From contig CALLBC010000073.1 of assembly GCA_938001965.1 (NCBI GenBank), forward strand, positions 1 through 41,471: 41,471 bases of DNA, read 5' to 3'. The notes below the pieces were generated by a model that was not told where the DNA came from, searched no databases, and was given only the letters and a program-made list of their open reading frames with translations. Below, piece by piece: positions 25,203 to 40,892 of the stretch (position 1 is the stretch's first letter; each line of letters starts with the position of its first letter). The translations under genes were made by a program, and so were the position numbers. The DNA is from an uncultured Bdellovibrionales bacterium (GTDB lineage Bacteria; Bdellovibrionota; Bdellovibrionia; Bdellovibrionales; UBA1609).

Positions 25203-26321
25203 ATGGAAAATAAATTTTCATTACTGCAACTTAAAGTCCTATTTATAATTGTAATGACTATTGTTAGTTGCTCTCAAAATGCTGGCTATTATGATATTCC
25301 TTCAGAGGAAATAGTAATTCCAGCCACTCATCTAAAAATTGAATCTGCTCCAGACGGAACAGGCATAGAGATTCTTACTGCGGCATTAACTAATGGTACC
25401 CCAATTAATCTATATGCTATAGCAAGAACGGCTTCTGGGCAGTTTGTTTTTAATGCTACAGTTGATTGGACTGTTACTGGCTCTTTGGGCTATCTTACGC
25501 AAACCTCTGGATCTTTTACAACTTATACACCCAATGGTGCCTCAGGTGATGCCACGGTCAGCGCAACACATACTAACCTTAACCCTGATTCCACAGGATT
25601 ACTGACAAGCTCTTATGATGTTGAATCAATCACAGGCCTTAGCCTTTGGCTAAGAGCGGAATCAATAACCGGCTCCCTTACAGATGGTGATGATGTCACT
25701 TCATGGAATGATGTTAATGGCAGCGGCCGTTCTGTGGCTGCATTAGGCGCAGGACAAGAACCAAATTTTATATCTGATGCCATAAATGGTTTACCAGTGA
25801 TTCGTTTTAACTCGAGCAATAACGACGGGTTTATTTCCACATTTCCAATGTCAGATATTATCTCTGACTCTGAGTATACCTATTTTATTATTTTTTCAGC
25901 CACGACTATTGCCACTGATAATATAAACGCCTGGGAAAACAATGCACTAATCATGGATAATGGTGGTTTTGTTGGAGCCACTCTCCGCTCTGGCACTCCT
26001 TTGGTGCAAAGTTATAACTGGGATGGTGTAACAGCTGTTGCCCCAAAAAGTATTGCTCTTAGCAATGGCTACTTACTTACAAGCTATCATGAATCCGGAA
26101 GTATTTATTCACAACTTAATGGCGATACGGCAAGTTCATTTGCTTCAGGCAACACCACTGATTTAACGAATATGCTAACTGTGGGAGGCGGCTATGCTCC
26201 TGCGGGTTTTTATAATGGTGATATTGCAGAGATTATAGTTTTTAACACCTCTTTAAGCCTTGCCGACCGCTCTACTGTGCAAGATTACTTATGCAACAAG
26301 TATAATTTAACTTGCCCGTAG
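25203..26321 (+). CDS. Lipoprotein with Ig-like and LamG/concanavalin A-like domains
   Basis: 372 residues. Signal peptide ending VMTIVSCSQN (lipidated C23). An Ig-like segment spans about residues 45-130 (INLYAIARTASGQFVFNATV, DWTVTGSLGYL, GDATVSATH). A LamG-type jelly roll follows at about 145-372: LSLWLRAESITGSLTDGDDV, SWNDVNGSGR, LPVIRFNSSNNDGF, FIIFSATTI, NGDIAEIIVFNTSL, VQDYLCNKYNLTC. The last part is typical of concanavalin A-like lectin domains that close with 'IAEIIVYN..L...(R)..V..YL..KY'. Probably a surface carbohydrate-binding or adhesive protein. No Shine-Dalgarno. Confidence 0.8.
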   Translation: MENKFSLLQLKVLFIIVMTIVSCSQNAGYYDIPSEEIVIPATHLKIESAPDGTGIEILTAALTNGTPINLYAIARTASGQFVFNATVDWTVTGSLGYLTQTSGSFTTYTPNGASGDATVSATHTNLNPDSTGLLTSSYDVESITGLSLWLRAESITGSLTDGDDVTSWNDVNGSGRSVAALGAGQEPNFISDAINGLPVIRFNSSNNDGFISTFPMSDIISDSEYTYFIIFSATTIATDNINAWENNALIMDNGGFVGATLRSGTPLVQSYNWDGVTAVAPKSIALSNGYLLTSYHESGSIYSQLNGDTASSFASGNTTDLTNMLTVGGGYAPAGFYNGDIAEIIVFNTSLSLADRSTVQDYLCNKYNLTCP

Positions 26322-36635: not shown

Positions 36636-37034
36636 CTAACCCCCTGCTTGAAGTATTTCTTTAACTTTAGAAACAATGGACGATAACTCAGAACCAGGCC
36701 CAAAAACAGCAGCCACGCCGTCCTTAATTAGCTGTTCGCCATCATCATCAGGAATAATTCCGCCCACAAAAATTGGAGAATCCATATCCTTAGTTTTCAT
36801 AATTTTTTGAACTTCTTTAACTAATGGCAAATGAGCCCCTGACAGCACAGATAAACCAATTATATCCACATCTTCTTGAAGGGCCGCCTGCACAATCATT
36901 TCTGGGGTTTGATGAAGGCCTGTATATATGACCTCAAACCCTGCATCACGAAGACCACGGGCAACTACCTTGGCTCCACGATCGTGACCATCCAAACCTG
37001 GCTTTGCAACTAATACTCTATAAATTTCACTCAT
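36636..37034 (-). CDS. Stand-alone cobalamin-binding domain (methylmalonyl-CoA mutase small subunit type)
   Basis: 132 residues, nothing but the B12-binding Rossmann domain. The base-off signature D-x-H-x-x-G is at D15/H17/G20 ([20 protein letters not shown]). [18 protein letters not shown] and [14 protein letters not shown] give the SxL and GG loops. This matches the separate small subunit of acyl-CoA mutases, which pairs with a catalytic alpha subunit carried elsewhere. No large subunit is in the window. It is divergent from the acyl-CoA dehydrogenase gene, consistent with branched-chain amino acid breakdown feeding propionyl/methylmalonyl-CoA. Confidence 0.93.
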
Positions 37035-37174
37035 AAAGCAGAGATTAACACTATTAAACTCTTTAAGCCTAGCCTCTTTTTAGATGCAGCATATTAATTA
37101 GGCAGTAAAGATTTTTTTTAGGTCTAGACCTACTTGAGGTTTTTACTTCAAAAAGGTAATTAGTACTGAACCAG

Positions 37175-37287
37175 TCATATTTTAGATTAATTCTTTATAC
37201 ATCTAAAACGAGTTCGGAGCGGAAGGCGAAGCCTGAGCACCGTATGTCTGAGCTTTTAGATGTATAAAGAATTAATCTAAAATATGA
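37175..37287. repeat. 113-bp long palindrome with perfect 34-bp arms
   Basis: Left arm 37175-37208 (starts TCATATTTTAGATTAATTCT) is the exact reverse complement of the right arm 37254-37287 over all 34 bases. The 45-base centre is much GC-richer and can fold again (CGG.GC...AGGC-GAA-GCCT..GC.CCG). It lies in the 294-base divergent gap, with its right edge 41 bases before the acyl-CoA dehydrogenase start. There is no U-tract on either side and no obvious target duplication. The rest of the gap shows nothing else. Confidence 0.95.
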
Positions 37288-37328
37288 CGGCCTTCAAACT
37301 ATCTTAACTCAATTTTTAAGGAGACTGT

Positions 37329-38480
37329 ATGTCTATCCCCGCACTGACACAACTAACTGAAGATGAACTGGCATTTAAAGAGGCCGTTAGACAATTTGCT
37401 GAAGGTGAAATTAAACCTTTAGTTACAAAAATGGATGAAGATGCAAAGTTAGATTCTGAGCTTGTTAAAAAACTATTTGAGATGGGCTTAATGGGCATTG
37501 AAACTCCTGAAGAATACGGTGGCGTTGGTAGTACTTTTACAATGGCTTGCTTAGCTGTTGAAGAACTGGGCCGCGTTGATGGATCAGTTAGTGTTATGGT
37601 GGACGTGCAAAACACACTAGTAACTAACGCCTTTATTCGCTGGGGCACAGAAGAACAAAAAAAGAAATACTTATCACAAATGGCCACAAGTAAAGTTGGT
37701 GCTTATGCATTAAGTGAAAGTGTAAGTGGTAGTGACGCTTTTGCACTTAAGCTTCGCGGTGAAGAAAAGGATGATCACTATGTATTAAACGGCCACAAGC
37801 TTTGGATCACAAATGCTGGAGAGGCTGAAATCTTTTTAGTTTTTGCAAATATTAACCCTGAGCTTGGCTATAAAGGTATTACTGCCTTTATTGTAGACCG
37901 TGACACTGAAGGTTTTAGCATTGGAAAAAAAGAAGACAAACTAGGAATTCGTGCAAGCTCCACTTGTGAGTTAATATTTGAAAACTGTAAAGTCCCTAAA
38001 GAAAATGTTATTGGCGAAGTTGGAAAAGGTTATAAAATTGCCATTGAAACTTTAAATGAAGGCCGTATTGGTATTGGTGCACAAATGCTAGGAATTGCTC
38101 AAGGCGCTTACGAGGCAACTCTTGAGTACATCAAAACTCGTGAGCAGTTTGGCAAACCAATTGGCAAATTCCAAGGGGTGCAGTTTCAGTTAGCTGAAAT
38201 GCGCACAATGCTTGAGGCATCAAGATTAATGGTTTACAACTCAGCAAGATTAAAAGACTCTGGCAAAGACTTTGTTGAAGAAGCCGCCATGGCAAAACTT
38301 TATTCGTCTCGAGTGGCCGAAAAAATCACATCTTTAGCCATTGATTTGTTTGGTGGAAATGGTTTTACCAAAGAATATCCAGTTGAAAAATTTTGGCGTG
38401 ACGCAAAGATTGGTCAAATTTACGAAGGAACATCGAATATGCAACTTCAAACAATTGCCAAATACGAAATGAGCAAATAG
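37329..38480 (+). CDS. Acyl-CoA dehydrogenase, short/branched-chain (ACADSB-like)
   Basis: 383 residues, the usual length. FAD enzyme that forms the alpha-beta double bond of acyl-CoA and passes electrons to ETF. YALSESVSGSDAFALKLRGE and HKLWITNAGEAEIFLVFANI are the FAD/substrate signatures. GIRASSTCELIFENCKVP and LNEGRIGIGAQMLGIAQGAYE follow. The catalytic base is E366 in IYEGTSNMQLQTIAKYEM, the C-terminal place used by short- and medium-chain enzymes. The whole sequence is close to mammalian 2-methyl branched-chain dehydrogenases (VDRDTEGFSIGK, PVEKFWRDAKIG). Isoleucine/valine breakdown is likely, butyryl-CoA possible. The AAGGAG ribosome-binding site is 7 bases before the ATG. Confidence 0.95.
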   Translation: MSIPALTQLTEDELAFKEAVRQFAEGEIKPLVTKMDEDAKLDSELVKKLFEMGLMGIETPEEYGGVGSTFTMACLAVEELGRVDGSVSVMVDVQNTLVTNAFIRWGTEEQKKKYLSQMATSKVGAYALSESVSGSDAFALKLRGEEKDDHYVLNGHKLWITNAGEAEIFLVFANINPELGYKGITAFIVDRDTEGFSIGKKEDKLGIRASSTCELIFENCKVPKENVIGEVGKGYKIAIETLNEGRIGIGAQMLGIAQGAYEATLEYIKTREQFGKPIGKFQGVQFQLAEMRTMLEASRLMVYNSARLKDSGKDFVEEAAMAKLYSSRVAEKITSLAIDLFGGNGFTKEYPVEKFWRDAKIGQIYEGTSNMQLQTIAKYEMSK

Positions 38481-38555: not shown

Positions 38556-39341
38556 TTAGGCTGCATCTTCTTGTGGGTATGCCACTACGTCCTCTCCTTT
38601 TTCTTCTCTCTCTTCCTTTTTTTCCACTTCTTTAATGTTTCTTTTACATGGTCCTAAGTAAGTTGATACACTACTATTTGTTTTCAAACTAATGTTTTGT
38701 AGATGACGATCTATAAGACCTTGTTTCATACAAATAGTTCTTCCTTTATCAGGTGCACTAGATAATACACATAACATTACTCTTTTTTCTGCGGCTTCCT
38801 CTGACAATCCATTACGTAGATACTCAGCAACCATTTCCTGCTCTTCTGCATTAGAGCTTGCTTCTTTAGCTATGTCGCTATTTTGCTTAGCTAAACGTCT
38901 TTCTAATCTATTGCGCTTAGATCTTTTCTTTTTTCTTAACTTTTTCTTATCTTCTGAGGCAACTAAGTCTTGAGTATCAGGCTCTTCCATAATATCAAGC
39001 TCGCCATCCATTCCTTTTTTAGCATGCTTTTTCTTATTACACTTTTTCTTCTTTTTAATCTTCTTGGGCTTCTTTAAGCAGGCATACTTACTTGCCATAA
39101 CTTCATCACTAACAGCTTCTGCAATTGGCTCTTTTTCCTCAAGAACTTCATCAGCTTCCATCACTTCCATAACTGCTATTACTTCTTCTTCTGATGGCGT
39201 AGCATCTGCAACTTCTTGCTCTGTAACTTCTCCACTTTCAATTTTAGACAGTAAATCTTTACCACTACTAAAATCATTTTCATTACATGAAATAGTTAAC
39301 ATGCTCATTGCAATTATACTTACGATCAGAATCTTACTCAT
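38556..39341 (-). CDS. Lipoprotein with acidic and polybasic segments, paralogue of 40302
   Basis: 261 residues. Signal peptide ends LTISC (C19), then NENDFSSGKDLLSKIESGEV, an acidic helix to about residue 80. A Cys-Lys-rich block (YACLKKPKKIKKKKKCNKKK) and a second basic stretch (KKKLRKKKRSKRNRLERR) follow. A C-terminal module reads VMLCVLSSAPDKGRTICMKQ, LIDRHLQN, then YLGPCK. The N-terminal acidic helix and the C-terminal GR.xC...GPCK module match the 40302 gene, so the two arose by duplication. GGGAG precedes the ATG. Family not recognised. Confidence 0.75.
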   Translation of the reverse strand: MSKILIVSIIAMSMLTISCNENDFSSGKDLLSKIESGEVTEQEVADATPSEEEVIAVMEVMEADEVLEEKEPIAEAVSDEVMASKYACLKKPKKIKKKKKCNKKKHAKKGMDGELDIMEEPDTQDLVASEDKKKLRKKKRSKRNRLERRLAKQNSDIAKEASSNAEEQEMVAEYLRNGLSEEAAEKRVMLCVLSSAPDKGRTICMKQGLIDRHLQNISLKTNSSVSTYLGPCKRNIKEVEKKEEREEKGEDVVAYPQEDAA

Positions 39342-40301: not shown

Positions 40302-40892
40302 CTACTTACATGGGCCCATATAACTAGTTCCACCTTCGGCTCTAGCATTATTAATATAATCTTCAAGCTCTGCTCTTGGTAAACACAGGCTTCTGCCATT
40401 GTTTTGCATACCCTTTTCAGCATGACAAACCATAAATTTATCAATTTTGTTATCTGGGTTTTCAACAATCACTTCTTCTTTATAAGTTCCACAATAGCCC
40501 ACTCTTATTTTGCCACCAAATTTATCTCGCACATACCCACCATAACTATCTCTTAAGTAGCAAGAATCACTTTCTTTAATAATAACTTTTTTTATTGGTG
40601 GTTTTTTTGCACATAAGTACATTTTAACTCTATCTATACTATTTCGTTTATCTGGGCTCATAACTTCTTCCACAGACTCTTTAACTTCAGGATCCATCAC
40701 TTCTGACATAACCTCTTCCATCTCTTCAACCTGCTCTTCGCTTGCCTCTACAGCTTCTATTTCTTCAACTGATAAATCGCCATTTTCTATTTTTTCAAGC
40801 ACAGACCCTGTACTAAACTCGGTTTCTTCACAGGCAGTGATTAAAGTGCTTAAACATATAATTAGAATTGTTATTAGAAAATTTGACCTCAT
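40302..40892 (-). CDS. Lipoprotein, paralogue of 38556
   Basis: 196 residues. Signal peptide ending TLITAC (C21), then EETEFSTGSVLEKIENGDLS, an acidic helix, and a Cys-rich module: MYLCAKKPPIKKV, DSCYLRDSYGG, VGYCGTYKEE, FMVCHAEKGMQNNGRSLCLP and GTSYMGPCK. The N-terminus (xFS(S/T)Gx2LxKIExGx(V/L)) and the C-terminus (GR(S/T)xC...Y(L/M)GPCK) repeat those of the 38556 gene, while the middle differs. AAGGGAT lies before the ATG. Confidence 0.75.
   Translation of the reverse strand: MRSNFLITILIICLSTLITACEETEFSTGSVLEKIENGDLSVEEIEAVEASEEQVEEMEEVMSEVMDPEVKESVEEVMSPDKRNSIDRVKMYLCAKKPPIKKVIIKESDSCYLRDSYGGYVRDKFGGKIRVGYCGTYKEEVIVENPDNKIDKFMVCHAEKGMQNNGRSLCLPRAELEDYINNARAEGGTSYMGPCK

Follow-up and report, generated by a model that had tools for sequence, protein, structure and literature searches.

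Bacteria are expected to lose long, perfect palindromes quickly. MITEs and palindromic elements, for example ERIC, YPAL and the Rickettsia palindromic elements, are non-coding, dispersed and self-complementary, with unrelated flanks, and what MITEs conserve is their terminal inverted repeats. REP and BIME sequences, which form the GTAG and CGTC superfamilies, are small intergenic hairpin repeats that number in the tens and lie mostly downstream of coding regions and between genes in tandem or convergent orientation, with complementary stem changes; REPs measure 20–40 bp and have a GTAG or CGTC foot (PMC3733652). Concerted evolution of long palindrome arms has been established in Nematomorpha mitochondria, where long, perfect palindromes in coding sequence have arms that change together, and template switching was suggested as the mechanism (PMC6649704). 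Template switching is an established creator and maintainer of perfect hairpins (PMC8794818).

The window analyzed here, a stretch of 41,471 nucleotides from an uncultured Bdellovibrionales bacterium, contains a palindrome that is real and far beyond chance. Its longest perfect inverted repeat (loop ≤130 nt) is 35 bp, compared to a maximum of 16 bp and a mean of 11.8 in 30 first-order Markov copies of the window, and no second inverted repeat of comparable size is present. A preliminary description had reported a perfect inverted repeat of 34 bp; the repeat is indeed perfect, but its arms are 35 bp, complementary at 35 of 35 positions. The same description noted a GC-rich 45-base centre between AT-rich arms, and we find a GC content of 62% in the core and 17% in the arms. 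Folded as RNA, this copy reaches −64.4 kcal/mol (z = −12.7 against shuffles). Its parts are listed here.

37174..37208, + strand: left arm, 35 nt, in perfect pairing with the right arm; its inner part, CATCTAAAA, is similar to other copies in the same genome, and its outer part is private to the window copy, with no other good match in a search of its own genome.
37209..37253, + strand: conserved core, 45 nt between the arms, C-GAGTTCGGAGC-GGAAGGC-GAA-GCCT-GAGCACCG-TATGTCTGAG-C, defined by an alignment of 31 copies (A1), by pair counts and by a covariance model of the element (R1).
37210..37215, + strand: 5′ motif half GAGTTC, near-invariant columns in A1.
37245..37252, + strand: 3′ motif half TGTCTGAG, near-invariant columns in A1.
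37254..37288, + strand: right arm, 35 nt; after it comes GGC, which many copies in the same genome group also have.

Just upstream, 37104–37147 holds a weaker palindrome, overlapping and centred on TAGGTCTAGACCTA. Downstream, neighbouring lipoprotein-like genes at 38556–39341 and 40302–40892 look like diverged paralogues, based on a similar acidic N-terminal region past the signal peptide.

This palindrome belongs to a small hairpin repeat, unnamed until now, whose copies are scattered through the intergenic regions of Bdellovibrio-like bacteria. A mobile miniature element was among the options first raised, with a search of the genome and its relatives for arms and core as the check; the search returned many copies with varied flanks, which marks a repeat family. 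In the window's own genome (G000; 3.55 Mb in 266 contigs), a search with the 115-nt element matched many further places, over the core plus the innermost arm only; there were 17 core matches at E ≤ 0.001, in unrelated flanks. The related MAGs G001, G010, G015 and G028 had 2–11 core matches each, with the same pattern of constant core and variable arms. Using R1, we found that 40 of the 141 genomes of the order were positive at E ≤ 1e-3, while across the phylum 32 of 369 genomes were positive at E ≤ 1e-5, of which 30 belong to the order and 2 do not. Detected copies reach ∼35 per genome, all copy numbers being derived from searches with score thresholds. An exact core pattern occurred, among 84,980 species genomes, in Bdellovibrionales only (15 named stretches, all from MAGs), and had no match in viral contigs. 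No Rfam 15 family matched at its gathering score, the best weak match having 31 bits against a threshold of 119; at a permissive threshold there were sub-threshold miRNA-like matches of the kind typical of long hairpins. We found no described family of such repeats in Bdellovibrio in a literature search that covered few subscription journals.

Conservation in the family is concentrated near the tip of the hairpin. In A1, the near-invariant halves C-GAGTTC and TGTYTGAG stand opposite each other and form an internal loop, the inner stem CGG-A-GC/GC-A-CCG is conserved, and the small apical hairpin varies in sequence, frequently with a C(GAA)G loop; in the window core the motif halves GAGTTC and TGTYTGAG enclose an apical hairpin whose loop is C(GAA)G. 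Tandem sheared G-A pairs may form where a G-A opposition adjoins a C-G pair (C-GA-G / CT-GA-G). Standard pairs make up 93% of the pair counts in A1, double-sided changes are found at 17 of the 22 pairs, and the covariation score is 0.55 compared to 0.16 when shuffled, a signal that is lost when the partners are slid. Among the R1 matches read, apical hairpins range from ∼10 to >50 nt with the same motif halves throughout. The arms measure 24–71 bp in 87 of 88 elements; those of the remaining element, 133 bp, reach the contig end. In nearly every G000 copy an inverted repeat encloses the core, and the sequence of that repeat differs between copies. One element in G107 is nested in the apical stem of another (L232). 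Tandem arrays of three core units with a period of 104–117 nt were seen at L054 5007–5343 (G000:C229) and L056 5032–5330 (G000:C117); there only the first unit has a left arm, and the sequence past the right arm is common to both (GGCGGGTTC...TTGCAAGCA).

The elements have a preferred orientation relative to genes. With the core read in its sense orientation, a gene 3′ end lies at the right side of 61 of the 88 elements, and the right arm boundary is often 0–30 nt past the stop codon. Only 8 of the 88 lie between divergent genes. The window copy belongs to this minority, based on the reading frames of its neighbours, a B12-binding-domain gene (36636–37034, − strand) and an acyl-CoA dehydrogenase gene (37329–38480, + strand). 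All 12 sites tested were empty in syntenic relatives: L001, L002, L005, L007/L009, L010 and L014 in comparisons with G001–G003; three in genus g33, with one G099 comparison resting on one flank plus a terminator; and three in g14/g15. The window copy is absent from the orthologous intergenic region of the congener G002, in which both flanking genes are conserved. Since flanks are unrelated and sites are empty in relatives, the copies are dispersed insertions. No clean insertion junction or target duplication was readable, including in the intergenic alignment of G000 with its congeners, the relatives being too diverged. We found no copy of this family at an orthologous site in two species, which argues for turnover rather than long conservation in place. 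At two g33 loci the apical hairpin has its counterpart in a terminator-like hairpin that stands by itself in this intergenic region of relatives, and thus the motif halves and arms appear to surround a resident hairpin. The outer 250-nt left flank in g14/g15 was considered as part of the element and rejected, as flanks are not consistently shared.

Two further loci deserve description. At L061 5325–6843 (G010:C24), two copies in opposite orientation flank genes for an HTH protein and a Fic-domain-like protein, a pair that looks like ‘mobile mystery protein A/B’; the insertion separates an mglA-like gene from nadA, two genes that adjoin each other in G000 C243. At L298 (G016:C11), ∼1700–2215, an element lies between two 128-nt direct repeats that are 95% identical (ATACCACTTAGGGTATTAT...GATCGGTATA) and belong to another repeat family; the flanking genes are directly adjacent in G031.

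To follow the arms we compared 25 copies in G028. Where the 43-nt cores are identical, the arms of two copies are 60–65% identical, compared to ∼30% for the outer flanks. Of the positions that pair in both copies, 847 were the same and 767 were changed on both sides, while 136 were unpaired; counts of this kind, made pair by pair, are descriptive and not independent. In moderately similar copies, coordinated changes exceed one-sided changes ∼5- to 10-fold. G028 arms at unrelated sites share a weak consensus over ∼45 nt that is absent from the outer flanks, and therefore the arms travel with the element. In these comparisons the arms are part of the element, and they change quickly but remain paired. 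Recent formation, suggested at first to account for the perfect palindrome, is not required, as the palindrome stays perfect although the arms diverge. The coordinated changes in G028 comprise 596 transitions and 1000 transversions, and transversion-type changes were the commoner in two of three sets; transitions would be expected from stepwise compensation through G-U pairs, but not from copying one arm off the other. Two time scales are possible: the copies may be old, with the core selected while the arms drift, or recent, with arms that change unusually fast.

A second palindrome family behaves similarly. It has a different, 80-nt GC-rich core (GCTTACGGCAGCATCGCG...) and arms of 42–68 bp that are variable but paired and share a consensus, with at least 15 scored copies in G000 and 12 in G001.

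L010 ∼1250–1450 (G000:C62 ∼25870–26070), and loci L099–L125: second palindrome family.

One copy of this family is orthologous in G000 and G001, and 21 of its 43 jointly paired positions have changed on both sides, in place. A third palindrome family was seen at the same locus in two species, L247 1080–1332 (G109:C118) and L253 1237–1405 (G106:C56), with arms of 72 bp and 32 bp and a shared core, ACAGGCATCCATGCCTTCGCCGAAACTCAGG...CCTGAGACGCGTCACGCTTTTCGGAG.

The residual mismatches in the arms differ between strands. Read on the core-sense strand of 87 elements, G-T mismatches number 89 and A-C mismatches 11; much of this excess is a fixed inner pair in G028, and outside the inner 12 bp the counts are 23 versus 7 (p = 0.005). 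A set without G000, G001 and G028 gives 23 versus 4, and the second family has the same bias on the opposite strand (7 versus 32). Therefore, either the core-sense strand folds, as RNA or as single-stranded DNA, or it undergoes biased C-to-T change. This strand is antisense to the usual right-hand gene, and so is not the 3′ UTR of that gene.

We favour, with a probability of about 0.62, a reading in which the element is a miniature hairpin repeat of Bdellovibrionales, dispersed and similar to REPs and MITEs, and in which template switching within the hairpin, together with selection for folding, re-matches its arms; its mobility and function are inferred. Some trans-acting activity would recognize the folded core and spread copies. 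Once inserted, the core-sense strand would extrude as a hairpin in single-stranded DNA or fold as RNA, and mismatches between the arms would be removed when one arm is copied from the other by template switching within the hairpin. Selection for folding could assist this re-matching and add the strand bias. The arm sequence would thereby drift freely, with the palindrome near-perfect throughout. Plain template-switch rectification predicts unbiased mismatches, yet a bias is seen, so selection or strand-biased mutation must also act; moreover, rectification alone does not explain arms that diverge much faster than the core.

If the core-sense strand were instead transcribed, the element could be a functional RNA with arms kept paired by compensatory evolution and a core that serves as a protein-binding internal loop. 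The excess of G-T (that is, G-U) over A-C mismatches on this strand, the strong covariation around a conserved internal loop and the very stable fold are all consistent with such an RNA. However, near-perfect, sequence-free pairing over 24–71 bp exceeds the requirement of known RNA stems, coordinated changes of the transversion type are common, and the strand is antisense to the most frequent right-end gene (61 of 88). The only two promoter-like sites at the window copy are mirror images inside the arms, a number within chance, and Rfam offers no family at gathering score. In the two copies, from other genomes, with a terminator-like apex, the apical hairpin should end the RNA ahead of the second arm. 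We thus consider an RNA role rather unlikely.

In a bolder reading, the element would be a new class of mobile hairpin that inherits only its tip faithfully, with arms rewritten rapidly and in concert either during each transposition or after it. An enzyme that folds one arm back and copies it into the other with errors could, for example, do this. Each new copy would then be a long, perfect palindrome with a new sequence. This is a tentative proposal that we judge unlikely.

Alternatively, each insertion could have duplicated its local flank in inverted orientation, by snap-back synthesis at a hairpin, such that one arm is native and the other copied. The outer arms do look unrelated between most G000 copies, right arm boundaries cluster 0–30 nt past stop codons, and the apex at the two g33 loci resembles the terminator hairpin found by itself in relatives. 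Against flank duplication, arms share a consensus in G028, where the outer flanks do not, and also in the second family, so that arms are inherited with the element; in addition, the orthologous second-family copy changed both arms in place. Overlaps with reading frames were tried as a way to recognize a native arm and rejected as ambiguous, since gene ends overlap arms on both sides; both consensus sequences then spoke against a native arm. We regard flank duplication as improbable.

A classical REP, or an element derived from IS200/IS605, moved by a Y1 (RAYT) transposase is very improbable. The element is REP-like in its size class, in lying between genes with a preference for their 3′ ends, and in folding as a single strand (PMC3733652), but a Y1 transposase (PF01797) was not detected in the copy-rich genomes G004, G016 and G031, which have 13–19 element matches each, while Y1 genes occur in many genomes without copies. 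None of the cores lay beside the Y1 genes examined, and no GTAG or CGTC foot occurs in the boundaries, cores or arm-end consensus of the 88 elements. Neither co-occurrence nor flanks thus link Y1 transposases to the copies. A retron or other element borne by reverse transcriptase was rejected, because RVT_1 was not detected in G000, G001, G010, G021, G131 or G136. An integron attC R box pair (GTTRRRY/RYYYAAC) was not noticed by eye in cores or arm ends.

The position of the window copy between divergent genes had suggested a cruciform operator, an attenuator or a replication or recombination site, and a locus-specific control element (operator, attenuator or terminator) of either neighbour, the acyl-CoA dehydrogenase gene or the B12-binding gene, would fit that position. 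However, other copies adjoin unrelated genes, more often at gene 3′ ends, the orthologous region of G002 has both genes without the element, and no intrinsic terminator (a GC-rich hairpin with a T run) is found within 37000–37400 of the window; a gene-specific role is hardly credible. An inverted duplication at a read end, conceivable for a contig of a fragmented assembly, can be dismissed for the family because the core with its long arms lies within contigs of independent MAGs and R1 matches include the single-contig genomes G042 and G099; as an account of the feature it is most improbable.

Against the expected loss of such sequences, one bacterial order thus keeps many long palindromes with arms that change yet remain matched. 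The set of copies provides natural data for weighing template-switch rectification against selection for folding, and a conserved core with sequence-free arms points to a structure-specific binding or mobilizing factor, as yet unrecognized, in relatives of predatory bacteria. Relative to described systems, the element resembles REPs in size class, in intergenic placement (mostly with a gene 3′ end at right), in folding and in complementary stem changes. It differs in that its arms alone span 24–71 bp and are largely private to each copy, and in its conserved internal loop near the tip; two defining REP features, the foot motif and the Y1 link, are missing. As MITEs, ERIC, YPAL and the Rickettsia palindromic elements are generally described, it is like them in being non-coding, dispersed and self-complementary, with sites that are empty in relatives. 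Its arms, however, diverge between copies far more than its core, and it turns the MITE pattern inside out, with conservation at the centre and not at the ends. The Nematomorpha palindromes differ in that they are not a dispersed family with a common core. Hairpins maintained by template switching (PMC8794818) share the mechanism proposed here for making and re-matching perfect stems, but those are RNA genes with short stems, whereas the element is a dispersed intergenic repeat with long stems. The element is best classed as a dispersed palindromic repeat outside the named families.
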